This document shows positions 14,318 to 43,482 of a stretch of DNA of 59,122 nucleotides, in pieces. The stretch comes from Candidatus Cloacimonadota bacterium (GTDB lineage: Bacteria; Cloacimonadota; Cloacimonadia; JGIOTU-2), in the NCBI GenBank assembly GCA_030613025.1, contig JAUWMT010000015.1, forward strand, positions 1 through 59,122, written 5' to 3'. A program made the translations under genes and the position numbers. Within the stretch, counting starts at the first letter, position 1. The number at the start of each line of letters is the position of its first letter. The notes under the pieces are model-generated. The model made no database searches, was not told where the DNA came from, and was given only the letters and a program-made list of their open reading frames with translations.

Positions 14318-14801
14318 GGTAAAATCTTTCATTGAAAACTTAGATAAATCGGAATTAAACAGGATAAACCACAGAGAACGCAGAGACCACAGAGAAAATA
14401 TAACTTGAGAAAAAGTAATTTCATATATAAAAAGCATGTCATTCCCGAGCCCCCATGCCAAGTCGTAGTTTACGAAGACTGGATCGGGAATCCAGTTTTT
14501 AATTAATGGCGAGCAGACCCGTCCTTATCCGCCAGCGCAGCTGGAATATCTCAAGTTTCATGAACAGACTTGCTTCGTCCCGATGCATCGGGATGAAGCG
14601 AGAATGTGCTATCGAAGGTGAGAATGAGCATTCTCAGTTTCATTGTTGTGATCTAAGTGGTGAGTTTTATTTTGTTATCTTAGTATTCTGAGAGTTCATC
14701 TGAAAGTGTCACTACTCTGAAAAATTTTAGAGGTATCCCAATTTAAGAAAATCAAATATTGACAAAAAAGTATCTGTTCATAATTTGCGATACAGTTTCG
14801 T
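14318..14801. repeat. Intergenic repeats
   Basis: No gene is supported. It holds an ACCACAGAG-type block (about 14369-14395), an ATTCCCGA...TCGGGAAT hairpin with a 35-nt loop (14441-14491), and a TCCCGATGCATCGGGA palindrome near 14578-14593. A 61-codon open frame starting at 14506 merely reads through these repeats. Confidence 0.7.
14441..14491. repeat. ATTCCCGA hairpin repeat, long loop
   Basis: ATTCCCGA (14441-14448) pairs with TCGGGAAT (14484-14491). The orientation is opposite to the copies near 5.5 kb, and a T-run follows the right arm. Confidence 0.65.
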
Positions 14802-15098
14802 CCCGTTAGAAATTATAGGAAAATTATTATGAACTTTTACTATGTATATGTTTTGCGGAGCACTAAAGACAATAATTTGTATACAGGATATACTTGCAAT
14901 CTACGCAAACGAGTTGATGAGCCAATAAAGGATATAATTTTTCAACCAAAAATAGAAGACCTTTTGAACTCATTTATTATGAAGCAAGTCTATCTGAAAT
15001 TGATGCTAAAGCTAGAGAAAAATATTTGAAATCTGGAATGGGAAAAAGATATTTGAAAAACAGAATGAAAAATTACTTGCACAATGATTTCTAACGGG
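14802..15098 (+). mobile_element. GIY-YIG cassette bounded by 12-bp inverted repeats
   Basis: CCCGTTAGAAAT at 14802-14813 and ATTTCTAACGGG at 15087-15098 are perfect inverted repeats, and similarity extends a few bases outward (GTTTCGT versus GTTGCGAAT). The space between is almost exactly filled by a small GIY-YIG gene, whose stop codon lies in the right repeat. The right end abuts a tyrosine recombinase remnant. This looks like a small mobile unit; the mechanism is inference. Confidence 0.55.
14829..15094 (+). pseudogene. GIY-YIG endonuclease-like protein, frameshifted
   Basis: The first frame begins MNFYYVYVLRSTKDNNLYTG, with the GIY-YIG signature as VYV...YTG followed by LRKRVDE. After about 14922 the family-like sequence continues in another frame: NKGYNFSTKNRRPFELIYYE, then EKYLKSGMGKRYLKNRMKNY, ending at TAA 15092-15094. 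Adding one base in GAGCCAATAAAG (giving E-H-N-K-G) would restore a single reading frame of about 88 aa, the usual length of UPF0213-like GIY-YIG proteins. It is either a decayed gene or a sequencing error in one base. Confidence 0.8.
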
Positions 15099-15099
15099 A

Positions 15100-15273
15100 T
15101 TCGCAACTCATTTGCTGGAGCAAGGAGAAGATTTGCGATATATTCAGAAAATTTTAGTACATACCAGTTCAAAAACGACAGAAATATATACTCATGTCAC
15201 AAATGCCGCAAAAAATAAGATAGTAAGTCCATTAGATAATTTAAACTTGGAAAAATCCAAAAATGAAAAGTAG
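15100..15273 (+). pseudogene. C-terminal remnant of a tyrosine recombinase (integron-integrase-like)
   Basis: The frame reads [19 protein letters not shown], then [14 protein letters not shown] and, near the end, IVSPLDNL, stopping at TAG 15271. This is the last 57 residues of a phage/IntI-type recombinase, including the conserved His in the LxHxSxxTT block and the nucleophile Tyr in IYTHV. The terminal SPLDxL is common in integron integrases but also occurs in other recombinases, so IntI identity is tentative. No upstream part of the gene is seen; the GIY-YIG unit occupies that place. Confidence 0.75.
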
Positions 15274-27872: not shown

Positions 27873-28052
27873 ATGAGCTTTATTATAACCGCTGATTGTA
27901 TTAAATGCGGAGCCTGTATAGAAATATGCCCGGAAAAAGCAATAGTCGAAGACGACACACAATACATAATCACAGATGATTGCATAGAGTGCGGACTGTG
28001 TCTTAAGGAATGTCCTCTCGATGCCATCAAAGCTAACAATAACAAAAAATAA
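27873..28052 (+). CDS. Small 2[4Fe-4S] ferredoxin, 59 aa
   Basis: A short gene easily missed. The frame from the ATG at 27873 to TAA at 28050-28052 contains two CX2CX2CX3C-P clusters: CIKCGACIEICP and CIECGLCLKECP, each preceded by Asp. This is the clostridial-type ferredoxin layout binding two [4Fe-4S] clusters. It lies 6 nt after frr and 4 nt before the DUF2723 gene, so it is probably co-transcribed. It fits an anaerobe. The redox partner cannot be told from context. Confidence 0.93.
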   Translation: MSFIITADCIKCGACIEICPEKAIVEDDTQYIITDDCIECGLCLKECPLDAIKANNNKK

Positions 28053-28056
28053 TACT

Positions 28057-30678
28057 ATGAATTTTGAAAATAAGTGCACTATCGACAGGAGAACAAATGC
28101 CATTATAGGGCTGGTAGTTTTTCTGTCTGTTTTCATTATCTATTATATCACAAAACCTGTGTCACTCTCGTTTTGGGATTGCGGTGAGTACATTGCCTGC
28201 AGCTCAATTCTTGGTGTTCCACATCCTCCCGGAAATCCCTTTTATATACTACTCGGTAAATTTTTCACACTCCTCCCGATAGGACTTTCACATGCTCAGG
28301 CAGTAAGTCTGTTATCAATTTTCTTTAGCTGTTTTGCCTCTCTTTTTGTCTATCTCTCTATTGTGAAGCTTGTTGCAATCTGGGAAACCAAACAGATATA
28401 TGCATATATTGCAGGAATTTTCGGTGCGCTCTTTATCGCTTTTTCACAAGAATTCTGGTTAAATGCGATCGAAGCAGAAGTCTATGGAGGATTATCATTC
28501 TTCATTGCACTTATAATATGGCTCACGCTCATCTGGACTGAAAAGCAAAAGAACTTCAACCATCAGAATATATTACTGCTCATCGTGTATCTATTCTTTC
28601 TCGGATTCAGCGTGCATCAGACAACGCTGCAGATCGCACTGGCGGTACTGCTGATCGTAGTTCTTCCATTATTGAAATTTGATAAGAATTTCTATAAGAA
28701 ACTTGCGATCTTCGTGGTCATAGGACTTGCTCTTTACTATATTTTCTATCTTATTGGATCCGGATTCGGGCAGGGCAGTCTGGGAAAATATATCTTCGCA
28801 CTTTTTGTTATAGGTGTGTTGATGTATTACCTGCGGGATTATGTACAACCTCGGGTATGGTTTTTTGCGTTGTTGATGGTTATTCTCGGGCTGAGCACAC
28901 ACCTCATTCTCCCGATACGTGCAGCAGCAGATCCCTTTATTAATGAGGGTGATCCTTCTACTCTGCAGCGTTTTATGGATTATGTCTTCAGGAAACAGTA
29001 TGGACCTACTAGTTTCACAGTGCGACGTGCTCCCATTCTGATGCAACTCGATTTTCATTTCCTCAGATATTTCAGCTGGCAGTTTTTCGATGCTCAGGTC
29101 ATCAGTAATTTCCTGAATGTATCAAAACAGTTTATACATACGATTTTCCAATTTATTGTTGTTGCACTTGGTTTGACCGGTTTTTACTATCAGTTCAAAA
29201 AGAACAAGCGCTCATTCATTTACCTTGCGTCATTTTTCTTCATGGCAAGCATTGCAATGATACTTGTGATGAATCTCTCATCTGCAGAAGTGCGTGACAG
29301 ACCGTACTTTTTCATAACTGCTTATATGCTTTGGACATTCTGGATGGGCATCGGAGTAATGGGAGTCATACGATATCTACGTAAAAGATCGAAAATATTG
29401 TCTATTATTGCATTATGTCTTCTTGCAACACTTCCCATTATTAATATGGCGTCTCATTATCATAAAAATGATAGAAGCCAGGAGCTGCTATCTCTTGAAT
29501 ACGGTACAAATTTCTTGAACGGGCTCGATAAGAATGCGATCATATTTACAAATGGAGATAATGATACTTTCCCATTGTGGTATGCTCAAGCAGTTTATGA
29601 TCCTAATGCAGAAGAATATTTTCTTGAGGAAGATACACTTCTCTTCGGAGAGATCAAAGGATTCTCAATTTCAGATAAAGAAGATATTCCAAGAAAAACT
29701 CAGATCAAACTGAATGAAGCATATGTGGCAAAGAAAGATCTTGGTGGAATTCGTAAGGATGTTTCTGTTGCAAATTTGAGTCTTCTGAACACACCGTGGT
29801 ATATAAAACAGCTTCGAGATTTTGAAGGCATTGAGATCAATTTATCTGATAAACAGATCGATGAGTTGCACCCTATCCAGCTTGCCAACGAAGCGAACTT
29901 CCGGGTAGGAGATATCAAGATCACTTTCCCAAAAGCCAAACAACTCTTCGTTAAAGACCAAATGGTTTTGCAGATCATAAAAAATAATTATGGTAAACGC
30001 CCTATATACTTTGCTGTCACAGTTGCAGACCGTGTGGATTTCGATGAATATCTTCAGAGCGAAGGCATGGCGGACAGACTTGTCTCGACAAAAGCAAAAT
30101 ATCAGATAAATGCCCCTCGACTAAATCATAATATTGAAAATGTGTTTGATTATAAATCCATCTACAATGAAACTCTCTACAAAGACGAGAATATGAAGCG
30201 TCTCGTCAATAATTATGGCGCCGATTTCATGCGTATGTCCACAACCTTCTATCAGAATGGAGATTACGAGAATGCAGTGAAGTATCTTAACAAGGCAATG
30301 GATTTTGTGCATGAGAAGGATAGATACCTGCCGAGTCTTGCAAACCTGTATTATGAAATGGAATTGTACGACAGTGCCTTGAGCGTGATCGAACCACTTC
30401 TAAAAAAGAGTCCTGAAGATCCTCAACTCGTATATCTCCAAATTGAATTTCTTGTGAAAAATGAGGATATTGCAACTGCCCTTAACACTCTTGAAGATTT
30501 CATTATGAAACATACTGATCAGCAATATTTCCTCAACCGCTATTTGAATATTGTGAGGATTAATACCGATTATGCTGAAAGAGCAGTTGACTATATGGAT
30601 GAACTGATCAAACAGCATCCGAAAAATAAATCATTCCAGCAGTTTAAGATACAGATTCAAGATATTAACAAAAAGTAA
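28057..30678 (+). CDS. DUF2723-family multispan membrane protein with TPR-like tail, 873 aa
   Basis: The start is the ATG at 28057. N-terminal half: multiple transmembrane helices with the family signature SFWDCGEYIACSSILGVPHP (PPGNPFY follows), and SQEFWLNAIEAEVYGG. This matches DUF2723, a GT-C-like family related to eukaryotic TMEM260, a protein O-mannosyltransferase. The C-terminal third is soluble, with TPR-like helices (about 735-830). By family knowledge it probably glycosylates exported proteins at the membrane; such proteins are common in T9SS-bearing bacteria. Asp/Glu of WDCGEY are the likely catalytic residues (inference). Confidence 0.88.
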   Translation: MNFENKCTIDRRTNAIIGLVVFLSVFIIYYITKPVSLSFWDCGEYIACSSILGVPHPPGNPFYILLGKFFTLLPIGLSHAQAVSLLSIFFSCFASLFVYLSIVKLVAIWETKQIYAYIAGIFGALFIAFSQEFWLNAIEAEVYGGLSFFIALIIWLTLIWTEKQKNFNHQNILLLIVYLFFLGFSVHQTTLQIALAVLLIVVLPLLKFDKNFYKKLAIFVVIGLALYYIFYLIGSGFGQGSLGKYIFALFVIGVLMYYLRDYVQPRVWFFALLMVILGLSTHLILPIRAAADPFINEGDPSTLQRFMDYVFRKQYGPTSFTVRRAPILMQLDFHFLRYFSWQFFDAQVISNFLNVSKQFIHTIFQFIVVALGLTGFYYQFKKNKRSFIYLASFFFMASIAMILVMNLSSAEVRDRPYFFITAYMLWTFWMGIGVMGVIRYLRKRSKILSIIALCLLATLPIINMASHYHKNDRSQELLSLEYGTNFLNGLDKNAIIFTNGDNDTFPLWYAQAVYDPNAEEYFLEEDTLLFGEIKGFSISDKEDIPRKTQIKLNEAYVAKKDLGGIRKDVSVANLSLLNTPWYIKQLRDFEGIEINLSDKQIDELHPIQLANEANFRVGDIKITFPKAKQLFVKDQMVLQIIKNNYGKRPIYFAVTVADRVDFDEYLQSEGMADRLVSTKAKYQINAPRLNHNIENVFDYKSIYNETLYKDENMKRLVNNYGADFMRMSTTFYQNGDYENAVKYLNKAMDFVHEKDRYLPSLANLYYEMELYDSALSVIEPLLKKSPEDPQLVYLQIEFLVKNEDIATALNTLEDFIMKHTDQQYFLNRYLNIVRINTDYAERAVDYMDELIKQHPKNKSFQQFKIQIQDINKK

Positions 30679-30729
30679 TAAGGATTGAATAAATAGGGGG
30701 AGTGTTAACTTAACTGTGTTTGGGAAGGT

Positions 30730-30789
30730 GCATAACGGATAAAATAACCTTCCCTGATGTATCTGGATCAGGTTGATTTGGGGTTGTGC
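30730..30789 (-). other. attC site E, end of cassette array 2
   Basis: Read on the minus strand: R'' GCACAAC (30789-30783), inner stem CCTGAT/ATCAGG, then R' GTTATGC (30736-30730). R'' is the complement of TTGTGC, the first six bases of the mod-res cassette at 35124-35119. About 60 bp, a normal attC size. It sits 41 nt before the stop end of the res gene. Confidence 0.75.
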
Positions 30790-30830
30790 GTATGCATTTA
30801 ATCTTCATTTATTTTTCTAAAGTTGCTGTT

Positions 30831-33203
30831 TTAATTAAATAAATATTCCATTGGTTTCCATTCATTATTGGATGGAGTTTCATCAAAATAATCGGCTGTA
30901 TCGCAATATTCCCAAACGCCATTGGCGAATCTGGAAATCCCACCCAAATAATTATCACCAAGTTCTTCTAATTTTTCAACTAAACCCTTTGCTCTTCCTT
31001 CGGTGTTAAGAGATTGACCTGCTTTTGTATCGAAAATTCCAACCTTCCCATTCTCAAATTGAATAATCCAGTCAGGGTAAAAAAGAGAATCTTTTTGTTT
31101 TGTCTTATTAAAGTACTGTAAAGAATATGCATCTTTTCCGCTATCACCATTTTTTAGCCACCATCTTACAGAATCTGTTTTTGTATCTATATAGTTCACA
31201 AATCTTTCTTCATTCTGCCTTCCGGAGTAATCACGAATATAACAACTATCCATCACACAATTATTTTGATCAACTTCAACATAATCTTCAGTGTATTGAT
31301 ATTGCAAATCACTTACTTTGAAAATGGGTGCTTCTTTCTCTTTTTGTTTATTATGCCGTTCTTTTAAAATCTTATTTAAGACAGGTCTATACTCTTTCAA
31401 TGCATTTGTTATGGCTGGTCTGAATTTGCTACTTGCATCTCGAAGAATATCAAAAACGCATACACGATAAATTGTTGAAATATCTGGTAAAAATATGCTT
31501 TTTAACCAAACACGTAGAGCGGATTTTAAAGGTGACCAAGACCGGGCAACATTTGTTATTCTGGCATCATCATCTGTTTGTTCTTTCAATACTTGATAAC
31601 AAAGGAAATTGAATGATTTTTCAATATCATTTTGAGACATCTCGAAATCTTGATCTTCACCTTTTGTCTTGAAATCCAAAGACAATTGGTCAAAATCAGT
31701 GTACAAAGCATCCACAATCAAACGATTGAAAACTTTTGAAGTAAGATTAACACCTTTTTCTTCCAATTTCTTTTGGGCTTTATCAAAAATATCATCAGAG
31801 GTAATTCCAAAATATTTATTCATTGACTCAACAAAACTCTTTTGAAATTTTACTGAATCGGCAAGATCTCCATAATCAACACGGGATAGAAAAGAGGATT
31901 CTAATTGAAAATCTTTTACATCTTCTTTGAATTCTAACTTAATTTGAGATTTATAAATAAACGGCTTGTTTCCAGTAATTTTCTCAAAATCGCCATTTAT
32001 ATCTTTTCGCTCATAATTGGTGAATAAATAACCTGTGCGTAAATCAGAATTGTATTTGTAATCATCCTTTTTTTGTGGTTCTGCCATTCGGAGAATGCGA
32101 CCAACTGTTTGTGCATAAAAAGTATGGGAAGAAATTTCCCTAAACATTATCAAAACGTGGGCTCTGGGGCAATCCCAACCAGTACCGGCAGCCTGTTTGA
32201 ATAATAGAAAATCGTGTTCATCATCATTTTCTTCTAAGAATGGCGGTCTTGAATGTCCGGTAAACCATCTGGCTATTTTCTTGCTTTCAACACCTAATTC
32301 TTTCAAATAATCCGTTACAACTTCTTCTTTTGTTTTTTCACCCCGATCCTGCAATTCTTTATCATCGTTAGGTAATTGGATGAGAATAAGGGGATTTACA
32401 TTTTTTCCTAATTCTTCAAATTGTCTTTTTAGTTCATTCTTCTTTTCTATCCCTAAATCCAACAAAACTTTGTCCAAATCTTCACCGCCGTGTTTCTGCA
32501 AATCTTCATTGGGTGTAACCACAATTTTTTCTTTTATCAACCCTTCATCTACAACACGTTGTCGTGGAACTTCAATAAAACTGTTATGCCTTCTGGCTTT
32601 CAATTCGTCTTCATTCGAAGGTGTAGCGGAAATACCATAAATAATTTTTGGATTGATATAATTGACTATTTCTTGAGCAAGAGTTGTTGTTCTGTTTTTA
32701 TGTACTTCATCTACGATAAGAATAATTTCTCTGCCCTCTTCGTGAGTTTTATCAATAAAGTCTTCCCAATAACTGCCGGACTCCTTCCGCTTGTCAGGAT
32801 TTTCTGGTCTCCGTAAGATTCTGTTTTCTGCGGAACGGGAAACCAGTTTTTGCCAGTTCAAGAATAAAATATCATTCTTTTTCAGTTTGCCGTTATTGAT
32901 GTCATTGACGGTAAGCAGGTCGTTTTTCAGAGCATTTCTAAAATATTCTTGAAATTTATCTTTGCTCTGCATTGCAAGGTCATCACTGAATGTAATCCAG
33001 ATAAACGCCTTATCTTCGTCCCAATTTGGTAAACCATTTAGTTCATTAATGAATGAAGCGGATGTAAATGTTTTTCCGCTTCCGGTTGGAGATTTTAGAA
33101 CAAGCGTTAATTGTCTTTCTGGATTGACCCAAAGGCGTACAAATTTTTCTTTAAGTTGGTCAATGGTTTCTTTTTGGAATGGTAGTGGATTGAATTTTGC
33201 CAT
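30831..33203 (-). CDS. res: Type III restriction enzyme, Res subunit
   Basis: 790 aa. Helicase superfamily 2 motifs: Walker A SPTGSGKTF (Lys44), DEVH (motif II), SATPS (motif III) and QTVGRILRM (motif VI). A C-terminal nuclease motif follows: Pro710-Asp711 (YPDWIIQF) and Asp725-Thr-Lys727 (GIFDTKAG). By family knowledge Res, with Mod, translocates or slides on DNA using ATP and cuts near unmethylated recognition sites. Its ATG shares a base with the mod stop (TAATG). Both genes are inside integron cassette D. Confidence 0.95.
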   Translation of the reverse strand: MAKFNPLPFQKETIDQLKEKFVRLWVNPERQLTLVLKSPTGSGKTFTSASFINELNGLPNWDEDKAFIWITFSDDLAMQSKDKFQEYFRNALKNDLLTVNDINNGKLKKNDILFLNWQKLVSRSAENRILRRPENPDKRKESGSYWEDFIDKTHEEGREIILIVDEVHKNRTTTLAQEIVNYINPKIIYGISATPSNEDELKARRHNSFIEVPRQRVVDEGLIKEKIVVTPNEDLQKHGGEDLDKVLLDLGIEKKNELKRQFEELGKNVNPLILIQLPNDDKELQDRGEKTKEEVVTDYLKELGVESKKIARWFTGHSRPPFLEENDDEHDFLLFKQAAGTGWDCPRAHVLIMFREISSHTFYAQTVGRILRMAEPQKKDDYKYNSDLRTGYLFTNYERKDINGDFEKITGNKPFIYKSQIKLEFKEDVKDFQLESSFLSRVDYGDLADSVKFQKSFVESMNKYFGITSDDIFDKAQKKLEEKGVNLTSKVFNRLIVDALYTDFDQLSLDFKTKGEDQDFEMSQNDIEKSFNFLCYQVLKEQTDDDARITNVARSWSPLKSALRVWLKSIFLPDISTIYRVCVFDILRDASSKFRPAITNALKEYRPVLNKILKERHNKQKEKEAPIFKVSDLQYQYTEDYVEVDQNNCVMDSCYIRDYSGRQNEERFVNYIDTKTDSVRWWLKNGDSGKDAYSLQYFNKTKQKDSLFYPDWIIQFENGKVGIFDTKAGQSLNTEGRAKGLVEKLEELGDNYLGGISRFANGVWEYCDTADYFDETPSNNEWKPMEYLFN

Positions 33204-34996
33204 TAGTTACTCAAATTATAGATTGTTTTGTACACTTCAAGAATTGGTTGTGGAATGGGTTTCACTTCAATATTATCCCGATATTCAAATTGATCTGCAA
33301 ATTCATTTTCACCCCAACTGAAAACATAAACAGTGACCGGTTTTTCAAGTACCAATACTTTTTCACGGAATTTTTCAAAATGGTCTAATTCCTCTCTGAA
33401 ATAAACAGCGGTGAACTGTTTTTCATTTTTGAAGAATTGGAAAAAGTCTGTTTGTAGTTCTTCCATTTCATAAAGGGTATTTTCGGCAATTGCCAAAAGT
33501 TCACCAGCGTGATGGGCTAATTCACTTTTGTCTTGATCGTTAGCACCCAGAATATTGTGGTCGCCAACGAATTCGGTTTTGTAGTATTTCAATGAATTTC
33601 CTAAACCCAAAGTATTTCCATAGCCATCTATTACATTTTTAACTCTTGGGTAACATTTTATTTTCATTATTTCATTCTCATTATTTGTCACCAGGATAAA
33701 TTTATCGCGACGATTTTCAAGAGAATTATTATCTAAAACAGCGTGTCCAAGGCTACCGGAACCAGCAAAAAAATCAAGAACTGTACAATACTTATTTTTT
33801 GATAAAGATAATTTTAATATGTGCTTTAAAAAGGCTATCGGTTTCTTTCCGCTACGAAAGTCAATACCACCTTCATGCCTACAATTACCAAAACTGTCTG
33901 AAAAATCTACAAAATTAATTATCGTTTTTTCTTTTTCATAGTTTTCAAGATCTTCTAATACCTCAACAGGAACACCTTGATAATATTTACCCTTGGTTGC
34001 TTTCTTTCTCTTTGGGCCGGTAAAATACCGATAATTAAACTTGTCGCTACCAATACCATATACTTTATACAAAGTTTTGTAACCATCTATGAATTCACGA
34101 TCCTGAAGATAATCCCTAAAAAATCGGCCTGAAGAATTACCATCTAATACTTTACCGGTGGCCCATATTTCTTTCAATGAATCAGTAGAAGGTTCTACTT
34201 TAACTATTTTATATGAATCCTCCATAAAAACATCTACTTTTTTACCGCCTAATTCTATTTCCTCAAAATCACCTATTTCTTCAATTGTCCATTTAAATTT
34301 ATCAATTTCGTACGGAATACTTTCATTTTTAAGAGCCGCACTAGGTGATTTGCTGTATATCAAAACTTGTTCAATCAATTTTTGATAACCCATATCTTCA
34401 ACCAGTGTTTTCCCTGGATACCTTACTTGAACATGTAAAGTTATTAAATGGTTTTTAATACCGAAAAGTTGGTCACATAATAATTTGAGTTGTGCGAATT
34501 CATTTTCATCAATATTGATGAAAATTATTCCTTCATCAGTAAGCAAGGATTTTGCCAATTCAAGGCGCTTGTACATAAAAGAGAGCCAATAACTGTGGCG
34601 CAAAGGATGGCCTTTCGGTACATCAGTCCCGTCTGGAAACTTGTCTAAAAATCGTTTATCCTTATATCTGAAACCATCACTGCCTGTATTGTAAGGTGGG
34701 TCAATATAAATGACATCAATTTTACCTTTATGTGTATAGTTCAAACAGGTAAGTGCGTGGTAATTGTCGCCTTCAATTAAAATGTGGGTGGGTTTGCCAT
34801 CGTCATTCACAATTGCTTTGTCTTTCACTTCTTTGAGTATGGGAAGTTTGTTTTCTACATCATCTTCAAAGGCTTCGGGTACATCCAGCCAATGTAAACC
34901 GTAAGTATCTTTTTTTATTTTATGATGGGTTCGCTTGAGTTCTTTTTCAAGTTCAGCTATTCGGTCTAAATATGTTTGTTCTTTTTCTGTTTTCAT
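33203..34996 (-). CDS. mod: Type III DNA adenine methyltransferase, Mod subunit
   Basis: 597 aa. Motif IV DPPYNTG (residues 99-105) precedes motif I LDFFAGSGSLGHAV (about 407-420): the beta-class N6-adenine layout of type III Mod proteins. A coiled-coil N-terminus precedes the catalytic part, and the target-recognition region lies between the two motifs (about 180-390). It methylates the recognition site on one strand and confers specificity on Res. It is translationally coupled to res. The start ATG is at 34996; 128 nt separate it from the cassette boundary at 35124. Confidence 0.95.
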   Translation of the reverse strand: MKTEKEQTYLDRIAELEKELKRTHHKIKKDTYGLHWLDVPEAFEDDVENKLPILKEVKDKAIVNDDGKPTHILIEGDNYHALTCLNYTHKGKIDVIYIDPPYNTGSDGFRYKDKRFLDKFPDGTDVPKGHPLRHSYWLSFMYKRLELAKSLLTDEGIIFINIDENEFAQLKLLCDQLFGIKNHLITLHVQVRYPGKTLVEDMGYQKLIEQVLIYSKSPSAALKNESIPYEIDKFKWTIEEIGDFEEIELGGKKVDVFMEDSYKIVKVEPSTDSLKEIWATGKVLDGNSSGRFFRDYLQDREFIDGYKTLYKVYGIGSDKFNYRYFTGPKRKKATKGKYYQGVPVEVLEDLENYEKEKTIINFVDFSDSFGNCRHEGGIDFRSGKKPIAFLKHILKLSLSKNKYCTVLDFFAGSGSLGHAVLDNNSLENRRDKFILVTNNENEIMKIKCYPRVKNVIDGYGNTLGLGNSLKYYKTEFVGDHNILGANDQDKSELAHHAGELLAIAENTLYEMEELQTDFFQFFKNEKQFTAVYFREELDHFEKFREKVLVLEKPVTVYVFSWGENEFADQFEYRDNIEVKPIPQPILEVYKTIYNLSN

Positions 34997-35118
34997 AAAT
35001 TGTTCAAATCTGGTTCATTTCATTTTATTAAAAGGAATTAATTTCTATTTCACCTTCCGTATAAAGGAAACATCTACCTTTAATAATTCTTGTGTTTATT
35101 TACATTTCAAATGCTGAC

Positions 35119-35186
35119 GCACAATGGCGTAGCTAAGTGGCTGGGACCGCGCAGCGGTTTCAGTCCGTTTCATCGACTTGTTAGAT
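35119..35186 (-). other. attC site D
   Basis: On the minus strand: R'' ATCTAAC (35186-35180), L'' GTCGATGAAACGGAC, inner hairpin ACCGC-TGC-GCGGT, R' ATTGTGC (35125-35119; first base differs from GTTRRRY). R'' complements TTAGAT, the first six bases of cassette C. The sequence TCTAACAAGTCG is typical of attC starts. It begins 3 nt after the stop of the 191-aa gene. Confidence 0.8.
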
Positions 35187-35188
35187 GA

Positions 35189-35764
35189 TTATTGAAAATC
35201 TGTTTCAACAATGTTCCAAATTCCTAATTTTTCAATATTCTGTAAATTATCAGGCATATCTTCTTGGTCAAACTCTAACTTTTCATAAAAATAATAGTTA
35301 TTAATTTTATCTTTCGAAACTCCATAGTCTATTCGAATAGAGTATACGATTTTGCCTTCAAACTCTTTCTTTTGCACTTTTTTGTAATAATCCCCGCCAA
35401 TGGTTAAACCCTCTTTATGTATTGTTTGATTGGGCATAATTGCGATAGGAAACTTAACGGGTTTCAAATATGTGGGTTCAATTGGTACTCCATTTAGGGT
35501 GAGCTCAGTTTCTATTTTTATGTAAGCTGGGACTTTCCCGATATTAGTGATTTGAAATTTTGATTTCATGTTTTCATCATGAAAAAATACATTGATTTTT
35601 TCTACAATAACCCATGGTCGTAATTCGTTTGAAGCTTGCTCGAGAGCTTTTTTTGCAGTCGAAGTAGCATACCAAGTGGATATAGCAGTAAAAATAAAGG
35701 CAGCAATTAATAGAAACCTTTCGAAATATTCCCATTTAGATCTTTTTATTTCTCCGTTTTTCAT
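35189..35764 (-). CDS. Membrane-anchored hypothetical protein, 191 aa, cassette C gene
   Basis: Not recognised. One N-terminal transmembrane helix (about residues 17-36: FLLIAAFIFTAISTWYAT) is followed by a soluble domain of mixed, beta-leaning sequence (PWVIVEKINVFF, SKFQITNIGKVPAYIKIE). This kind of protein, one helix plus an extracytoplasmic Ig-like region, is frequent among integron cassette genes. I use the ATG at 35764; a GTG at 35791 lies inside the attC site and is unlikely. The start is only 10 nt after the R' box and the stop only 3 nt before the next R'' box. Confidence 0.78.
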   Translation of the reverse strand: MKNGEIKRSKWEYFERFLLIAAFIFTAISTWYATSTAKKALEQASNELRPWVIVEKINVFFHDENMKSKFQITNIGKVPAYIKIETELTLNGVPIEPTYLKPVKFPIAIMPNQTIHKEGLTIGGDYYKKVQKKEFEGKIVYSIRIDYGVSKDKINNYYFYEKLEFDQEDMPDNLQNIEKLGIWNIVETDFQ

Positions 35765-35773
35765 ATTATCTTC

Positions 35774-35846
35774 ATCTAACGTGCCCTTCACCAGCGGGAA
35801 CGGAGCGCAGCGGAATTGGCAGTCCGCGTTGATGCGGTTGTTATAC
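35774..35846 (-). other. attC site C
   Basis: The clearest attC of the window. Minus strand: R'' GTATAAC (35846-35840), L'' CATCAACGCGGAC, loop region, L' CCGCTGGTGAAGGGC, R' GTTAGAT (35780-35774), an exact GTTRRRY. The L boxes pair with bulges, as attC sites do. 73 bp. R'' complements TTATAC, the first bases of cassette B. Confidence 0.88.
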
Positions 35847-36018
35847 CCATTTTTGTAAAAGCTCCAAGGTCCACTGCCGCCTGCAAACTATTTTGTAGTT
35901 CTAACCATGCTCGGGCAGGCACAAATTGCAAGTCTGTTTGTAGGCGTTGCCTAATTCGGCAAATTTTACTTGTCGCACCTTCATTCAATCTACTTAGAAG
36001 CTTCAGAGGATTGTTCAT
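35788..36018 (-). CDS. Possible small cassette-end ORF, 76 aa
   Basis: An open frame starts 16 nt after the symporter stop and runs into attC site C, so its last 20 codons are attC sequence. It has no clear ribosome binding site and no family I recognise. It may be a real small gene, a remnant of an earlier cassette fused to this one, or noncoding. The 35847-36018 stretch has no better candidate. Confidence 0.25.
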   Translation of the reverse strand: MNNPLKLLSRLNEGATSKICRIRQRLQTDLQFVPARAWLELQNSLQAAVDLGAFTKMGITTASTRTANSAALRSRW

Positions 36019-36034
36019 TAAATCTGCTTAAATT

Positions 36035-37381
36035 TTACCTGTCTTTCTTGAAGATAAATTGACCAATCAATAGGCCTAAAAATGCCGCGGCAAGGGGATA
36101 GAGAAGATACACAGGTTGTTGAAACTTTCCTAGAAAAAATAAAGGTAAATGGACTATTGAACCAAGCACTAGACTGAGCATCGTGCTTATATCATTTAAC
36201 TTATGCTTCTCCTTATATCGATAGAAACTGTAAACAGCAGACGGAGCCATTATAGTGAGAATAGTGGTAGCACCAAAAACAAGATTTAAAAAATTACCGG
36301 CGCTCAATGCGAGTACCATTGCGAGTAATAGGTAGATCGGAATAACATACCTTGTATTTTTTACGATTTTCGATTTGTCTTTACTTCCTCTCATCAAGAG
36401 GTTTTTGACAAACGTCAATGAGTTGATAAACACATAGGTGTCAATTGTCGACATAATTGAAGCAAATAGTACGGTCAATAATAATGCTCCCGCAATTGGG
36501 GGCAGAACAGTTTTGAATCCTTCATAGAATACTTGGTTAGGGGAAATATCACCCAGAATGCTACCAAGCAGCATTCCAAATAAAACAATGATCGCATTGA
36601 ATATAAAAAATGCCGGCCCTGTAATAAGCAACGCTTTACGAGCGGTCTTTATATTTCTTGCCGAATACAAACGCTGCCATGTGTCTGCACCCATAAGAGT
36701 TACAAAAAAGCCTGAAACAGTAAATCCTACTATTCCTTTCCACGTAGGACTCAACAAAGACCCAATTTGGATGTCTAAATGTGCCCTTCCGCTAATCAAC
36801 CAGAACGGGACGACAAGAAAGAGCAGAATGATAAACCATTGAAATATATCAGTGCGCACCACAGACGTATATCCACGAAACATTAAATATGCAATGATGG
36901 GGATGCCTACCAAAAATGTCGCGGTAGTCAAGGAAATTGGTAACAATGCTACAAGAACTCTGCTCGAAACATAAAATTGAGCAATAACAAATATGAGCCC
37001 CATGACTACTATAAGAATCGCTGTCAAAAATGCAGACCCTTGCCCGTACACTTCATTAAAATAATCAGGTATAGTCAATAGATTTTTGTCATCTGAGAGC
37101 CTTCGTATTTTGGGAACAATAATATATAGATAAGCAAGTGCCAGTAACATCCCCATTGTTAGCCAAACTGCACCGAGTTTAAATATTACCCCCAATGTAA
37201 CCAGAGCGACAAAACCAGACCCACTTCGGTAGGTAGAGAAAAGCGTCGAGACTGTTGCCCACACTCCAAGATTTCTGGATGCAATAAGATACTCGTCCGG
37301 ACTCGTTTTTTTTCGACCTGTTGCAATCACGATTGTAAGCGCAACGAAGTACAGGATTAAAAAAAGTATGTTGTACGGCAT
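36035..37381 (-). CDS. Sodium:solute symporter-family membrane protein, cassette B
   Basis: 448 aa with about 12-13 predicted helices. SSS-like features are ATGRKKTSPDEYLIASRNLG after the first helix, STLFSTYRSGSG in helix 2, and VLFASIMSTIDTYVF, equivalent to the S(A/T)xxSTxD sodium-site region of the family. By family knowledge it would move a solute with Na+; the substrate is unknown. It begins 4 nt after the stop of the P-loop ATPase gene upstream and shares the cassette with it, which is an unusual partnership. The start ATG has GGAGG about 6 nt upstream, inside the ATPase stop region. Confidence 0.88.
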   Translation of the reverse strand: MPYNILFLILYFVALTIVIATGRKKTSPDEYLIASRNLGVWATVSTLFSTYRSGSGFVALVTLGVIFKLGAVWLTMGMLLALAYLYIIVPKIRRLSDDKNLLTIPDYFNEVYGQGSAFLTAILIVVMGLIFVIAQFYVSSRVLVALLPISLTTATFLVGIPIIAYLMFRGYTSVVRTDIFQWFIILLFLVVPFWLISGRAHLDIQIGSLLSPTWKGIVGFTVSGFFVTLMGADTWQRLYSARNIKTARKALLITGPAFFIFNAIIVLFGMLLGSILGDISPNQVFYEGFKTVLPPIAGALLLTVLFASIMSTIDTYVFINSLTFVKNLLMRGSKDKSKIVKNTRYVIPIYLLLAMVLALSAGNFLNLVFGATTILTIMAPSAVYSFYRYKEKHKLNDISTMLSLVLGSIVHLPLFFLGKFQQPVYLLYPLAAAFLGLLIGQFIFKKDR

Positions 37382-37385
37382 TTCA

Positions 37386-38858
37386 TTACCTCCTTAATGA
37401 TTTTAATTCTTCCTGTTTTGCTTCGTTCAACATGACTATGAGTTCTCTGGGAAGAATGCTTTGTGCATCTGTTGCTCTGTCGTAGAGCCACTCGAAAACA
37501 TCCCCATCGGCATCATTGGATGAAGTTCGATACATATAGGGCAGCTCAAATTTCGTAGCGTACTCAACATCAGGTTCATCTACAGGTTTTAGGAATCCTC
37601 TATCAAATAATATTTCAAGCAATGAAGTAAGATCTTCTTTATTTTTAACTTCTAAAACTTCTGCAAGGTACTCCCTAGAGAATTCATTTTTTTGATTCCG
37701 CATAAGTTTTCTCATCTTTGGATACAAATTGTGCTTGTCTGATTCTTTGAATTCTACTAAATAGGTTTCCAACCTGTAAAGACGAAGTGTTTTCTGCGTT
37801 TTAAAGACAGAACGCGAAGATATCAAGAACTCTTTACCTGACTTACTTCGATCTGGGCTCTGTTCAAAGATTGCATGGAATACTTTTAATGCTTCTTCTT
37901 CAGTCATAGTCCCAACGTCAGATAAACTCATAGACAATATTCCTTCACAATATGTTCTGATGCTTTGAACACTCAGAATGCGTCTGACAATAAAGTGAAG
38001 AATCGAACGGCGGTTCCAGTCCAAAACCACAAACTTACCATATAACTTGGGTTTTCCAACAAATGCCAATGGTCTAAGTATATCATTTCGTGCGAATATT
38101 TTCAACCTAATGTTGGTATAGGTGTTGCGGAAAGTTTCCCACAATTCAAGGAGCGAAGCGATGCAGGTGTTACGCCTTGGCAAATCAGGGAAAAATAAAT
38201 CGTCAATATCGTCAATGAGAATCCAAATATAGCAATCCTTCTCCCTTAAAAGTTTATCACATTGACTCAATGCTTCCTGGTAATCTATTTCTTCATCTTC
38301 TTCAGACCGCGCACCAAATTTAATGCCTAATCCAAGTTTCATTGTACCATCTGGCGAAAAAAATGGCTCTAAAGACTCTAAAGATGTCAGAATATTTTTC
38401 CCTGGTTTATTTTTTTTTCTAAGAGGTGATTTTTTAGATATAATTTCTTCATACGAGAGGGCTCCTACAATTTTCTTCGACAAATAGCTCAGCCACTCGC
38501 TACTGAAGCGCCCTCTGGCGTTTTTTTCGATGCCTTCAAGAGACTTTCTAACCCCTGGATTTAAACGAAGCTCGTGGTTAAGACGTGAAATACAAATTAT
38601 CACTTTCTTGACATCTCTATTACTATCGGGATTATTAAAAATTTTGTCTATGTCATTTTTTGCACAATCCAAATATTCCGTTATCGCCGATTTTCCTATG
38701 CCCTTGTTTCCTAGAATAAGACCTACTTTATTATCTACTATTTTGGGATATTGAGGAGGAACAACGAACACATCCGTAGTCATTTTGCCTTCTGCTTCAG
38801 CGTCAGGTTCGCCAAAACAAAGATCATTAAGAAGTTTTAATCTTTTGGACTTATCCAT
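37386..38858 (-). CDS. P-loop ATPase, Sll1717-like, cassette B
   Basis: 490 aa from the ATG at 38858, which has AAGG 9 nt upstream; an ATG at 38867 abuts that AAGG. Early FGEPDAEAE resembles the start of Sll1717-type ATPases. Walker A is GNKGIGKSA (about residues 50-58), and Walker B is WILIDDIDDLFF (about 205-216), with a sensor-like ARND near 255. The C-terminal 130 residues look like winged-helix material. Many relatives sit in defence islands, which suggests a sensor or switch ATPase. Function is inferred; the coupling to a symporter is new to me. Confidence 0.8.
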   Translation of the reverse strand: MDKSKRLKLLNDLCFGEPDAEAEGKMTTDVFVVPPQYPKIVDNKVGLILGNKGIGKSAITEYLDCAKNDIDKIFNNPDSNRDVKKVIICISRLNHELRLNPGVRKSLEGIEKNARGRFSSEWLSYLSKKIVGALSYEEIISKKSPLRKKNKPGKNILTSLESLEPFFSPDGTMKLGLGIKFGARSEEDEEIDYQEALSQCDKLLREKDCYIWILIDDIDDLFFPDLPRRNTCIASLLELWETFRNTYTNIRLKIFARNDILRPLAFVGKPKLYGKFVVLDWNRRSILHFIVRRILSVQSIRTYCEGILSMSLSDVGTMTEEEALKVFHAIFEQSPDRSKSGKEFLISSRSVFKTQKTLRLYRLETYLVEFKESDKHNLYPKMRKLMRNQKNEFSREYLAEVLEVKNKEDLTSLLEILFDRGFLKPVDEPDVEYATKFELPYMYRTSSNDADGDVFEWLYDRATDAQSILPRELIVMLNEAKQEELKSLRR

Positions 38859-38882
38859 TACTAACATCCTTGGACTTTCATT

Positions 38883-39108
38883 GTATAACGGAGTTGCCGA
38901 TAAGCGGCGCCCCAGAACAGCAATGCCGCTTAAAAAACAACTGCCGATGATTTAGCAAACTGTGCTTAACTTTAATCGTAAGCACAGTTTGCAAGTATAT
39001 TAATTAGAACTACTACCACTAACGAGTTAGCCGAAACGGTACGACTAACCCCAAAATTTATAAAATGCCAAATGCGAAAACGGCGTCCGCTTGATTGGCT
39101 TGTTATAA
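38883..39108 (-). other. attC site A, unusually long
   Basis: Minus strand: R'' TTATAAC (39108-39102), which overlaps the TrlF gene stop; L'' GCCAATCAAGCGGACGCC; then about 150 nt; L' GGCGCCGCTTATCGGC; R' GTTATAC (38889-38883). L'' and L' pair well with two bulged bases, so the ends belong together. The middle contains a 14-bp-arm hairpin and an internal GTTAGTG, so an insertion into an attC, or a fusion of two, is possible. Confidence 0.65.
38955..38992. terminator. Strong hairpin inside attC site A
   Basis: Perfect 14-bp arms GCAAACTGTGCTTA and TAAGCACAGTTTGC with a 10-nt loop. It could stop transcription between cassettes A and B in either direction, although no long T-run follows. It may instead be an inserted REP-like element. 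Confidence 0.5.
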
Positions 39109-42045
39109 CGCATTGTATTCAATCCCATATTTTTGTTCACGTTTTTGAAATGCTTCTTTTCCACCTTCGAGAATATCACATACGTGTTCTCTTATACCAT
39201 ATTTATATAAAATTCCATCCTCAGCTTGATTTTCAAATGTTTTTTCAATAGCACCGGAAACATATTCGAAAGTGTATTCTCTTTTATCTTTCCCAATCTG
39301 TTGACCAGATTGATTTGCTACAATAATATTTTCTGAATCTGTAGAAACGACCAAATTTGCATTGTGAGTAACTAATATTATTTGTCTATTATTCTTTTTA
39401 TCGATAATAAAGTGTTTCAATTCATCATAAATAGTTCTGTTGTCAAGATTATCTTCCGGTTGATCTATCAAAATTGGATGTGTAGCATTACTAATGTGTA
39501 AGATTAATTCTAGAAGAACAACACCTCGTTTTCCAGGTGACATTTTTAATATATTATCACCTTTATAAATTATCTTGTAATCAATCTTAAAGTAATTCCC
39601 TAAAAGTTTTTCATAGAGATCGTATTCGGTAGTACTATATTTTATCCTTAATCCTAGTTTTTCAATTTCTCGTATTTTCCCGAATATTAATTTAATATTT
39701 CCAATATGTGTTTCTTTATTAAAAATAAATTCCTCTTTATCGTTGAATGCAGTAGAAAAGAATTGACTCAGCCTTGAGCGTCCATCGAATAAAGCAGTAA
39801 ATGCTTGGAACTTCGTTAAGTCGAAATGCAAAGTGCTTTGCAATTCTAAATCCTCACCAATTTTCTTGAATTTATCTAATTGGAGCTCTCTTTCTATTTC
39901 AAGAAATGAATCAAAGATTACTTTATAGTTTGCTAGTATTTCAGCATTTATTTGGCGGGCGCGTTCAACAATTTTATGAAGTTCTTTAGTTTTAGAATCA
40001 ATTTCAATGATTTTATCTTTTTCTGTTTTGATACGTTGTGATAAATTCTCTAGTAATTTTTGATTCTTTATTTTTTCTTGAAATGGTTTTAAGTAATTTT
40101 CGATTTCACTAATAATTTTTTCAAGTTTAGAGATTTTTTCAGCTAAAGCGACAGAATAACTATCGGAAAGTAAATTGAACTTATCAAAAGAATCCTTAAT
40201 TGATGTGTTAATATTATCAAAGAGATGTTTTAATAAATACTGTTCTATACCTTCAGCATCATATTCTGAATATTTCTTATTAATAAAATCGGTTAACTTA
40301 GGACCGAGATCGTTTACACTTGAAACAAACTCATCTATTGAGGCACTTGCATTAGTATAATAGGCTTTCTTTCCATCAATCAATTTGTATTTGGTATTTA
40401 GATTTATAAAAGTTTTGTTCTGGGATTCGGTAAATCCAGCAGTTTTCCTTAAGTCTTCAATGTCTTTTGTGATTTTTTGAATTTCTTCATCAATTTTCTC
40501 TTTTTTGCCAATAGAAATCTTTTTCTTATTTATGTCTATATACTCATTTTTTAGTTGTATTAAATTTTCTATCTGTGATTTAATCTCTGCTTCTGAATTA
40601 TTAATTCTATGATATATTTGAGTTACCTTATCTTTATAATCATTATTCTGTAACAATATGTTTTCAATTAACTCGTCAAGGTGTTTTTCTCCTTGTTTTT
40701 CTGCAAGATGATTTATATACAACTGTGGGATATAAGTAATTTGATTATTATTTTCATCTTCGGCGTCTGTAAGTTTATTAGTTGTTTCATCACGCCAAAC
40801 CACCTCTAAATCAAAAGGATTCTTTAACATAAAATCGTCATAGTCACTTGCGGCTACCAAACTTGTTTTATTTTCAACTTGTGTCCGATCAATTGCTTTT
40901 GCAATATGGTAATGTAATAATGATTTCCCAGCAGATTTACCACCTATTATTACATTTAAATCTTGATTCAAATAAATCCAAGATGGGGAAAACATTTTAT
41001 TGGAAGACTTGTCAATGAATCTAAATTTATCAATTACTAAATAGGATGTTTTGTCAAAGGGTTTGTTTTCATCAATTTTTACTCTTTGATCGGGTTCATA
41101 AATTACTTGTTTTAGTCCTTCAAAAGTCGGATTAGATTTTATCCAAGTAATTCTATTTAAGGCTGGTTTAAATAAATTTTCGAATGAATGCGCATCTGAA
41201 CCCCATATACAAGGTTTTATAGAACCAAATTCCTCAACAAACGCTCGTTTATTTTCGTGATATTCTCCTAAACCAAATTTAATGGTACCAGGATTAGAAG
41301 AGAAAATAAAATGCGATTTTTTAATAAGAAGCTTTCTGAATAAATGCCCTTGTGAATTCCACTCAATTCGGCTTAAATCTTCATCCGCCGGTATCCCCAA
41401 TAAATATTTGCCTCTAAATAAATTGACATTTGCGGAAAGTGTATCTATTATTTTTTTGTCATCTATTGCAGCATTCATAATACCAACAAAGTGATCATTA
41501 TATGATTGGAACGGTTGATGTTCTTTTTTTAATTGCATTCCAAGTAATTCAAGATTCCTTCTCGTAAGAGAATTTGTTTGAGAAGATTCCCCAACTAAAG
41601 CTGTGTTTTCAAATTCTAAGCGATGCAAAAAATTTTCTTCAATATCCTCAATCTGTATTTTATCAGAAAAAATAATGTGGTAGTTAACTTTCCTATTCCA
41701 ATTGAGTGAATTCTCTTTATCAATAACTAACTTCGAAATACGAAATTCTATATTAGGCACAACAAGAATATTTTTTATCAATTCTATCTCAGTTTCATCA
41801 AACAATGATTCGAGCTTTGATTGATTTTGGAGATAATCCCTTTTAAGTTTTTTGTAACCATCAATAGAAAAATAATCTGTAATGCCTATAGCAACTACTT
41901 TATTTTCAATTGCACTTTTAAACATATTTTGAACATATATATCCCATTCGGAACCAAAATTATTATTAAGTACAGAACTTGGCATATGAATATGAAGATC
42001 CCATTTACCCCACTCACTTCCTCTTTGAAATGTTTTATGATTCAT
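39103..42045 (-). CDS. TrlF-like PHP-domain/SMC-type ATPase, cassette A
   Basis: 980 aa from the ATG at 42045 (GAGAG upstream). An N-terminal PHP phosphoesterase-like domain has WDLHIHMPSS (His18, His20), GITDYFS and GSDAH (282-286). An ABC/SMC-type ATPase is split around a long coiled coil (about 480-740): Walker A GGKSAGKS (368-375), signature MSPGKRGVVLLELIL, Walker B PILIDQPEDNLDN and H-loop LVTHNANL. This matches TrlF-family AAA-like ATPases, frequent in defence islands. DNA or nucleotide cleavage triggered by phage is the likely role (inference). The stop codon lies in the R'' box of attC A. Confidence 0.9.
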   Translation of the reverse strand: MNHKTFQRGSEWGKWDLHIHMPSSVLNNNFGSEWDIYVQNMFKSAIENKVVAIGITDYFSIDGYKKLKRDYLQNQSKLESLFDETEIELIKNILVVPNIEFRISKLVIDKENSLNWNRKVNYHIIFSDKIQIEDIEENFLHRLEFENTALVGESSQTNSLTRRNLELLGMQLKKEHQPFQSYNDHFVGIMNAAIDDKKIIDTLSANVNLFRGKYLLGIPADEDLSRIEWNSQGHLFRKLLIKKSHFIFSSNPGTIKFGLGEYHENKRAFVEEFGSIKPCIWGSDAHSFENLFKPALNRITWIKSNPTFEGLKQVIYEPDQRVKIDENKPFDKTSYLVIDKFRFIDKSSNKMFSPSWIYLNQDLNVIIGGKSAGKSLLHYHIAKAIDRTQVENKTSLVAASDYDDFMLKNPFDLEVVWRDETTNKLTDAEDENNNQITYIPQLYINHLAEKQGEKHLDELIENILLQNNDYKDKVTQIYHRINNSEAEIKSQIENLIQLKNEYIDINKKKISIGKKEKIDEEIQKITKDIEDLRKTAGFTESQNKTFINLNTKYKLIDGKKAYYTNASASIDEFVSSVNDLGPKLTDFINKKYSEYDAEGIEQYLLKHLFDNINTSIKDSFDKFNLLSDSYSVALAEKISKLEKIISEIENYLKPFQEKIKNQKLLENLSQRIKTEKDKIIEIDSKTKELHKIVERARQINAEILANYKVIFDSFLEIERELQLDKFKKIGEDLELQSTLHFDLTKFQAFTALFDGRSRLSQFFSTAFNDKEEFIFNKETHIGNIKLIFGKIREIEKLGLRIKYSTTEYDLYEKLLGNYFKIDYKIIYKGDNILKMSPGKRGVVLLELILHISNATHPILIDQPEDNLDNRTIYDELKHFIIDKKNNRQIILVTHNANLVVSTDSENIIVANQSGQQIGKDKREYTFEYVSGAIEKTFENQAEDGILYKYGIREHVCDILEGGKEAFQKREQKYGIEYNAL

Positions 42046-42067
42046 ATCCAAACTCTCGAATTATTGC

Positions 42068-42126
42068 GTTATAACTACTAATTAGACTGCACCGTGCAGT
42101 CTAACATTCTTATCATATTAGTTAAC
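42068..42126 (-). other. Cassette A boundary and fold-back site
   Basis: GTTATAAC (42068-42075) marks the 5' boundary of cassette A. Beside it lies a palindrome, TTAGACTGCAC-C-GTGCAGTCTAA (42082-42104), and an outer ACTAAT/ATTAGT pairing that ends in GTTAAC. This may be the attC of a lost preceding cassette or an attI-like site. Confidence 0.45.
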
Positions 42127-42396
42127 ATCTCACTACAATGCAATCCGTCAGCTGACGGATAAAAATATATAAATGTATAAAATACTGCATTTGTTTCATA
42201 AAAAATTTGCATTGTAGTTTCCATTACTAATTTATTTATCCCGTTAGGTCTGCCAGCTGGCGGAGTGCCACCTCTAACAAAATTTGTTACATTGCTTATC
42301 ATTTGAACTTTTATTAAAAGATGAATAAGTGCTGTCAAGAAAAAATTAAAGGATTTAAGAAATTAACTTTTACGAATTATTTCATTACTCAATCTT
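42127..42396. repeat. Intergenic repeats between cassette array 2 and hicB
   Basis: No gene is supported. It holds a CCGTCAGCTGACGG palindrome (42145-42158), a GCCAGCTGGC word with ATCCCGTTAGGT (about 42238-42265) recalling the ends of the GIY-YIG unit, and TTGACA on the minus strand (42338-42333). An 86-codon open frame here translates these repeats. Confidence 0.6.
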
Positions 42397-42409
42397 TTAA
42401 AAGATTTCT
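42357..42409 (-). repeat. Hic-associated repeat, copy 1 (partial)
   Basis: Shares TTAACTTTTACxAATTATTTCATTAC and AATCTTTTAAAxGATTTC words with 42656-42762 and 43357-43461. It overlaps the 3' end of the solitary hicB. Confidence 0.6.
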
Positions 42410-42591
42410 TCTAACATCCGGATAACTTCTATAAGATTGTTATGTAATTCATCAAGAGTATTCCCTTGCGAATGTGCACCTGGAAATCCCGGAACATATC
42501 CTACATATAAGTTAGTATCATGACATTTTTCAACAACAGCGGTATATATTTTCATAAATATTTTATCTTCCATTTTAATAAACCTTATCAC
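42397..42591 (-). CDS. Solitary HicB-like antitoxin
   Basis: Up to 64 aa; an internal ATG gives 52 aa starting MKIYTAVVEKC. HicB core features: YVGYVPGFPGAHSQGNTLDE followed by LHNNLIEVIRMLEE, a degenerate RNase-H-like HicB fold. No hicA gene is next to it, and a second hicBA pair lies 245 nt away. It may be an orphan antitoxin or a decayed module. It is very close in type to the HicB at 43021. Confidence 0.75.
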   Translation of the reverse strand: MIRFIKMEDKIFMKIYTAVVEKCHDTNLYVGYVPGFPGAHSQGNTLDELHNNLIEVIRMLEEIF

Positions 42592-42655
42592 TATTTATAA
42601 TGGTCTAACATATAATAAATTGCACCGTGCAAAATACAATACACTTATTTTCCGA

Positions 42656-42762
42656 ATTTAACACACATAATAAAACAAATTCCTATCTAAGACATTAACT
42701 TTTACAATTATTTCATTACACAATCTTTTAAAGATTTCCTCAAAAGTATTGTCAAATTTTTT
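42656..42762 (-). repeat. Hic-associated repeat, copy 2
   Basis: About 107 nt, closely matching 43357-43461 (shared CAAATTCCTATCTAAGACAT and AAGTATTGTCAAATTTTT). On the minus strand it contains TTGACA, 17 nt, TTTAAA, so it may bring a promoter for the downstream hicB. Confidence 0.7.
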
Positions 42763-42835
42763 CTAAGAAATTTCAGAATCCTCCTCGTTTTTGTCCGTCA
42801 ACTGATGGATTGGATTGTTAAAATGCGTGTTTCAT

Positions 42836-43024
42836 TCATCTGATAACTGGAACTGATAAACTACGACAAATCTTTCGTGCTAATTTGTTTGGAATTTCTG
42901 TATGACGGGGAACAGCTTCAATATGTCCGGTATTTGGATTACACCACAAAGAATGAGATCGTCCTTCACGCTTAAGATAGCACCCTTGTCTACGAAGATG
43001 TCTCAATAGGGTATTACGTTTCAT
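42836..43024 (-). CDS. hicA: HicA-type mRNA interferase toxin
   Basis: 62 aa. HicA double-stranded RNA-binding-like fold with the catalytic His in GRSHSLWCNP (His24), preceded by LLRHLRRQGCYLKREG. By family knowledge it cleaves mRNA and is blocked by HicB. Its start overlaps the hicB stop by 4 nt (ATGA), so the order here is hicB then hicA, the reverse of many systems. Co-regulated with hicB. Confidence 0.9.
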   Translation of the reverse strand: MKRNTLLRHLRRQGCYLKREGRSHSLWCNPNTGHIEAVPRHTEIPNKLARKICRSLSVPVIR

Positions 43025-43236
43025 TGAATCGTAACAAATTCTTTTTTAGCACTTTCAGGGATACCGCGAAACGCATCTTCTCTACGGTCTTCAAGAATTA
43101 AAGCAATTGCTTCAGAAAGACTTTGTTTACATTCTTCAATAGTTCGCCCTTGACCATTTGCTCCCGGAATTTCGGGGCAATATGCAATATACCAATTTTC
43201 GTCTTTTTCAATTATTGCTGTAAACTCGTTATGCAT
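43021..43236 (-). CDS. hicB: HicB-type antitoxin
   Basis: 71 aa: the HicB core FTAIIEKDENWYIAYCPEIPG with GANGQGRTIEECKQSLSEAI, plus a short C-terminal tail. It lacks a long DNA-binding domain, so autoregulation might use another factor. It overlaps hicA by 4 nt. AAAAGGAAT upstream supports the start. The hicBA unit is bounded by 14-nt near-perfect inverted ends (42817-42830 and 43300-43313), similar to integron cassette ends. Confidence 0.9.
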   Translation of the reverse strand: MHNEFTAIIEKDENWYIAYCPEIPGANGQGRTIEECKQSLSEAIALILEDRREDAFRGIPESAKKEFVTIQ

Positions 43237-43356
43237 ATTAAATTCCTTTTAATTATAATAAAAATTATGTTTTAGATTGACCTAAAACCAATAATTCTGA
43301 CACGCATTCTAACATATATCATACTGAAACAATCAGTATATAATATACCTACTTTG

Positions 43357-43461
43357 AAATTAACACACTATAAAACAAATTCCTATCTAAGACATTAACT
43401 TATTCAAGTACTTCATTATCAAATCTTTAAGAGAATTATTAAAAAGTATTGTCAAATTTTT
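43357..43461 (-). repeat. Hic-associated repeat, copy 3
   Basis: About 105 nt, paralogous to 42656-42762, lying upstream of hicBA on the minus strand, with TTGACA at 43455-43450. The rest of 43237-43536 has no gene, only this repeat, an ATACTGATTG/CAATCAGTAT-type hairpin region near 43321-43340 and the secA leader. Confidence 0.7.
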
Positions 43462-43482
43462 CATAATTAATTGCTATAAATA

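Follow-up and report, generated by a model that had tools for sequence, protein, structure and literature searches.

The usual integron comprises one integrase, one attI site and one array of cassettes. Clusters of attC sites without an integron-integrase are known as CALINs, and are proposed to originate either from loss of intI or from off-target insertion (PMC9024848, PMC8618304). IntegronFinder seeks attI sites for class 1 integrons only (PMC9024848); since such tools are blind to non-class-1 attI sites, loci that hold them would be reported as CALINs or missed. In mobile integrons attI-type cassettes have been described, and the arrangement attI1-aadB-attI1 is excised very efficiently (PMC12901181). 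Insertions at attG sites (Loot 2024, cited in PMC12444791) place cassettes away from the integrase gene, possibly by insertion in trans. The sedentary chromosomal integrons of Vibrio and Xanthomonas carry defence and toxin-antitoxin cassettes; defence cargo in integrons has already been described (Darracq, Getz, Kieffer 2025, cited in PMC12444791). For the Cloacimonadota, no literature on integrons was found.

Here we describe an integron-type locus in a 59,122-nucleotide stretch of DNA (the window) from a Candidatus Cloacimonadota bacterium. The locus adjoins secA and consists, in order along the minus strand, of attI copy A1, a hicBA cassette, attI copy A2, a HicB-like gene, an attI fragment (A3) joined to attI copy B, and four cassettes, c1 to c4. 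No intI or intI remnant lies within reach of the three attI copies A1, A2 and B. To judge from the sequence, the region is very probably an integron locus from which the integrase has been lost while attI and cassettes were kept, and in which several attI platforms are stacked upon one another.

Like a CALIN, the locus holds several attC cassettes in the same orientation without an adjacent intI and, having two or more attC sites and no integrase close by, falls within the CALIN definition; unlike a CALIN, it retains an attI, a site which that definition ignores, and further attI copies in tandem. As in a complete integron, an attI with a G|TT crossover precedes the cassettes, attI B having homologues beside intact intI genes; an intI adjacent to attI is absent, the only intact copy lying on another contig of the genome, C4. 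The order attI-gene-attI of the mobile attI-type cassettes (PMC12901181) is seen in A1-hicBA-A2, but here nearly full leaders are repeated, and the setting is chromosomal and family-wide. The locus shares defence and toxin-antitoxin cassettes with the Vibrio and Xanthomonas integrons, and the wider bacterial family has attI-headed arrays with an attC series; the locus differs in that there are many short, scattered platforms with few cassettes each, mostly without integrase, and in its 3-4.4 kb cassettes with two-gene systems. As with attG insertions, the cassettes lie away from the integrase gene and may have been inserted in trans, but the site they occupy can be recognised as an attI. What is unusual in this locus is that orphan attI platforms are stacked and that cassettes of 3-4.4 kb hold two-gene systems.

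An integron cassette is recognised by a start that pairs with its own R'' box and not with the R' box of its neighbour. Four consecutive minus-strand units had been proposed to show this pairing, and all four do: c1 (38889-42074, 3186 bp; boxes TTATAA/TTATAAC), c2 (35780-38888, 3109 bp; TTATAC/GTATAAC), c3 (35125-35779, 655 bp; TTAGAT/ATCTAAC) and c4 (30736-35124, 4389 bp; TTGTGC/GCACAAC) each open with six bases reverse-complementary to their own R'' box. Because the starts pair in this way, the units are read as integron cassettes. The R'' box lies 220, 67, 62 and 54 bases from the 3' end of c1, c2, c3 and c4, respectively. There are departures from the canonical form; TTATAA, TTATAC and TTGTGC deviate from strict TTRRRY at one position or more, and the last base of c3 is A, the usual base being G. 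In 3000 dinucleotide-preserving shuffles of the five intergenic gaps, the full four-unit chain never appeared, and a three-unit chain appeared 10 times.

The limits of the four attC sites are exactly those first given from the sequence. The attC of c1 (38883-39108, minus strand) has R'' TTATAAC and R' GTTATAC with complementary arms and extra hairpins inside; its 226 bases exceed the 57-141 bp quoted for attC sites (PMC12901181). That of c2 (35774-35846, minus strand) has R'' GTATAAC, R' GTTAGAT and bulged arms, that of c3 (35119-35186, minus strand) ends in A, and that of c4 (30730-30789, minus strand), the last, has R' GTTATGC, which forms the right end of the array. The whole window was searched on both strands with a covariance model, R1, built from 27 aligned attCs of class 1 plasmid integrons and named chromosomal integrons found via their IntI, all unrelated to the window. 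Its two best matches, both on the minus strand, were 30730-30789 (16.3 bits, E 0.086) and 35119-35186 (8.8 bits, E 5.2); these scores are modest, and both coordinates are exactly as predicted beforehand. Thus two of the four predicted sites were found by the search, while the c2 site was not recovered in the window and the c1 site was not recovered as a whole; these two sites are assigned from their matching boxes, the layout of the genes and the complementarity of the stems. A division of the c1 site into two sites flanking a tiny cassette was considered and rejected, there being no R'' that matches a start at the inner GTTAGTG. A home-made attC scan by folding was discarded as too noisy, Rfam gave no match in the window, and native long attCs (from C4, G001:C8, G001:C26 and G007:C156) used as DNA queries returned few copies only.

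The sequence-only reading had taken the array as a mere attC series extending over 30730-42075. This is right for the four-cassette part, but 42075 is an attI crossover: the array has its own attI at its head, with two more copies in tandem behind, and the element runs on beyond the crossover of attI B (42074/42075) to about 43475. AttI B (42075-42352, minus strand) has 278 bases and scores 68.7 bits with a model of the attI core. Joined to it is fragment A3 (42353-42414, minus strand), which is 88.7% identical to 42685-42744 in A2 and to which the 3' end of the HicB-like (UPF0150 in Pfam) gene (42397-42608, minus strand) is fused. This gene stands behind A2 (42609-42775, minus strand; crossover 42609/42608; 60.7 bits). 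A1 (43313-43475, minus strand; 66.8 bits) adjoins secA and has its crossover between G 43313 and T 43312, where the hicB-hicA cassette begins (42802-43312, minus strand; HicA and HicB by Pfam); the R'' of this cassette is TTTTAAC at 42817-42823, and its attC is truncated past the first arm. The A and B leader types align as one family, with a hairpin, a CTAAT-like box and the crossover G|TT at the end. Matches to a promoter consensus in the leader region were no more numerous than in shuffles.

Similar sites occur beside integrase genes, intact in other genera and decayed in a congener. In that congener, G007:C156 has two attI copies to which attI B is 95% identical, the identity stopping at the crossover; they stand beside an internally deleted intI and head other cassettes. 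AttI B is also homologous to the stretch in G013:C75 that leads from an intact intI to the first cassette. In G008:C39 the A1/A2 leader type has its match 293 bp away from an intact intI.

The cargo, all on the minus strand, agrees by profile matches with the gene types read from the sequence, the membrane protein being family-less. Cassette c1 encodes a TrlF-family AAA-like ATPase (39103-42051), a full-length match to NF045780 at 582.7 bits (cut-off 350), with lower-identity relatives in five other genomes of the 125 from the phylum. Cassette c2 encodes a Sll1717-family P-loop ATPase (37386-38867; NF047389, 136 bits, cut-off 75), which also matches weakly the candidate defence family PDC-M28C in PADLOC, and an SSF symporter (36035-37381; Pfam SSF, 85.8 bits). 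The product of c3, a small putative membrane protein encoded within 35125-35779, has no match in Pfam, NCBIfam or PADLOC. In c4 a methyltransferase (33203-34996; Pfam N6_N4_Mtase, PADLOC MTase_III) and a Res gene (30831-33203; Pfam ResIII, PADLOC REase_III), adjacent and each with its domains, are assigned as a type III restriction-modification pair. For the c2 ATPase and the c3 protein, neither the other 124 genomes of the phylum nor the plasmids searched yielded a relative, and among 80 named integron loci the only relatives of the cargo were distant symporters. Family membership suggests an anti-phage role for the cargo genes, which probably protect against phages and plasmids; the toxin-antitoxin pairs may stabilise the locus. 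Large cassettes with defence cargo had been called unusual: judged by the work cited in PMC12444791, this no longer holds for the defence cargo, but does for 3-4.4 kb cassettes with two genes.

Comparison with related genomes, which like the window's own are draft assemblies, reveals both an empty site and exchange of cassettes. In four congeners (G003, G004, G005 and G006) secA lies immediately next to the gene at 28021-30678, and the window's 30697-43464 is absent. Between the same two genes, G001 has a single attI leader with a different cassette and a long attC. On the secA side of G002, attI A1, hicBA and attI A2 are followed by a toxin-antitoxin pair other than the window's and by the first part of one more attI; at A2 the leader and the core GTTAGACC are common to both genomes, and different genes follow. 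A hicBA unit in another genus (G013:C65) shares 92% identity with that behind A1 from crossover to R'' (491 columns), compared with 51% before the crossover and 62% after R''. The attC of the G013 copy is complete, whereas the window copy keeps the first arm only and continues into attI A2. The alignment indicates that hicBA was exchanged between genera exactly between crossover and R''. The sequence-only reading had looked to relatives' flanks for the absence of a cassette: what is absent in the four congeners is the whole insertion. Movement between loci is seen for hicBA; for c1-c4, no relatives of the c2 ATPase or the c3 protein were found in the phylum.

That the array has no integrase, as first noted, holds for the surroundings of the locus, and an intI was indeed found elsewhere in the genome. 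Contig C4 carries the one full-length IntI (8444-9481; TIGR02249, 434.7 bits, cut-off 265), in which alignment with IntI1 places the arginine, histidine and tyrosine motifs and the IntI-specific insert. It heads its own integron, which has its crossover at 8304 and includes a long attC (3935-4069), and faces an attI AGATAAGAACGAG|TT that is unlike the A/B family; given this difference, we infer no more than that this IntI may serve A/B sites in trans. The genome has further cassette arrays on C89 (attCs of 37.1 and 27.6 bits), C65 and C85. That on C65 (L158, 6597-9689) is headed by an attI-like site (37.9 bits), which precedes a trypsin-like protease cassette and an attC; after these comes a large SIR2 and SEC-C-like gene, as read by eye, a possible defence gene. 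In the window itself, 14779-15243 holds a tyrosine-recombinase fragment (HNLRYSF ... SPLDN) apparently split by a small unit with a GIY-YIG-like frame; the unit is bounded by the inverted repeat CCCGTTAGAAAT / ATTTCTAACGGG and looks like a cassette inside a gene. The part at 15088-15243 was considered as an intI remnant, but its motif and context also agree with a generic tyrosine recombinase that a small unit has split; for this reason it is not used as evidence.

A model of the 65-position core of the leader alignment was used to search 125 genomes of the phylum, 7 of which have an intI above the cut-off. It found 39 copies in 9 genomes, all of the window's own family, and no match outside that family; four of the copies are in the window's genome. 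Among 38 copies examined, two adjoin an intact intI and four adjoin clear remnants, while for about 29 an upstream sequence of more than 500 bases shows no convincing intI. The intact genes lie 235 bp (G013) and 293 bp (G008) from the copies, in divergent orientation. Most of the 38 end in G|TT and are followed by unrelated genes, and the genes at the crossovers (GNAT, ParE-like, PemK, PIN, Fic, trypsin-like and small membrane proteins) are typical cassette cargo. Behind attI copies, attC sites come next on the same strand. On G011:C128 (L211, 9893-16533) an attI, five attCs, a further attI and an attC follow one another on the same strand, with an N-terminal intI remnant, forming a second stacked platform. 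These family-wide orphan attI platforms, and their stacking, are new.

The integron reading first made from the sequence is borne out by the box pairing, by attC-model matches at predicted places, by the absence of the insertion in four congeners, by the attI at the head and by the intI elsewhere in the genome. The locus could instead be a plain CALIN, made by off-target insertion at an attG-like, non-attI site by an IntI encoded elsewhere, with no local integron at any time. There is an intact IntI elsewhere and no intI at the locus, and insertion at attG sites is on record in the literature cited in PMC12444791; the head of the array, however, is no random site but a 278-base homologue of an attI that stands beside intact or decayed intI in other genomes, and we regard this origin as very improbable. 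The leaders might also be a dispersed promoter repeat or a miniature mobile element, not an attI, which precedes cassettes by chance. Such an element, which we think very unlikely, would suit the 39 copies, most without intI, and the conserved TTGACA-like start of the leaders, but not the divergent copies 235-293 bp from intact intI, nor the G|TT ends of most of the 38, with unrelated genes and an attC series behind.

Hardly credible is an ordinary defence island, in which the genes were acquired independently and the boxes match by chance or as converged inverted repeats. Although defence-like genes cluster in many genomes and the attC scores in the window are modest, the shuffle test, the exact coordinates of the independent model matches, the attI at the head and cassette exchange with breakpoints at the sites all argue against it.

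If the locus is an integron that has lost its integrase, its cassettes would have been captured at the attI sites by IntI, once encoded locally or acting in trans, and the attI leaders would supply the promoters for their transcription. Loss of intI together with a merger of adjacent integrons may have produced the stack, or attI copies may have recombined with one another; tandem duplication, such a merger or the movement of gene-plus-attI units would be alternative routes. A bolder idea, possible but rather doubtful, is that the attI platforms are distributed or parasitic units, dozens of them integrase-free and some stacked, that are served in trans by one intact IntI; gene-plus-attI units would then move as attI-type cassettes, each new gene bringing a landing site and a promoter. 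One bacterial family has many attI platforms, most integrase-free and some stacked, with toxin-antitoxin, restriction-modification and other defence-like cargo, and the service of many attI sites by one integrase in trans becomes directly testable. The alignment also defines by comparison a non-class-1 attI family (39 model matches), with its crossover and box layout.

Several minor observations concern other loci of the family. On G013:C28 (L206, 427-3513) three attI leaders stand in tandem. A repeat precedes each of them, and the 5' end of the flanking gene (MFRIKRPAGQPSRKL) is part of this repeat, which suggests tandem duplication of the platform. On G007:C156 (L160, 4202-4351 and 7720-7830) two intI copies have the same large in-frame internal deletion, which joins RHYSIRT to VQELLGHKD, leaving a short frame beside attI; other short C-terminal intI frames are present in the family. 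Finally, in native cassettes (L206, 2276-2937) the complementarity of start and R'' reaches well beyond seven bases (GTTAGGCTGTTTTTAATA / TTATTAAAAACAGCCTAAC).
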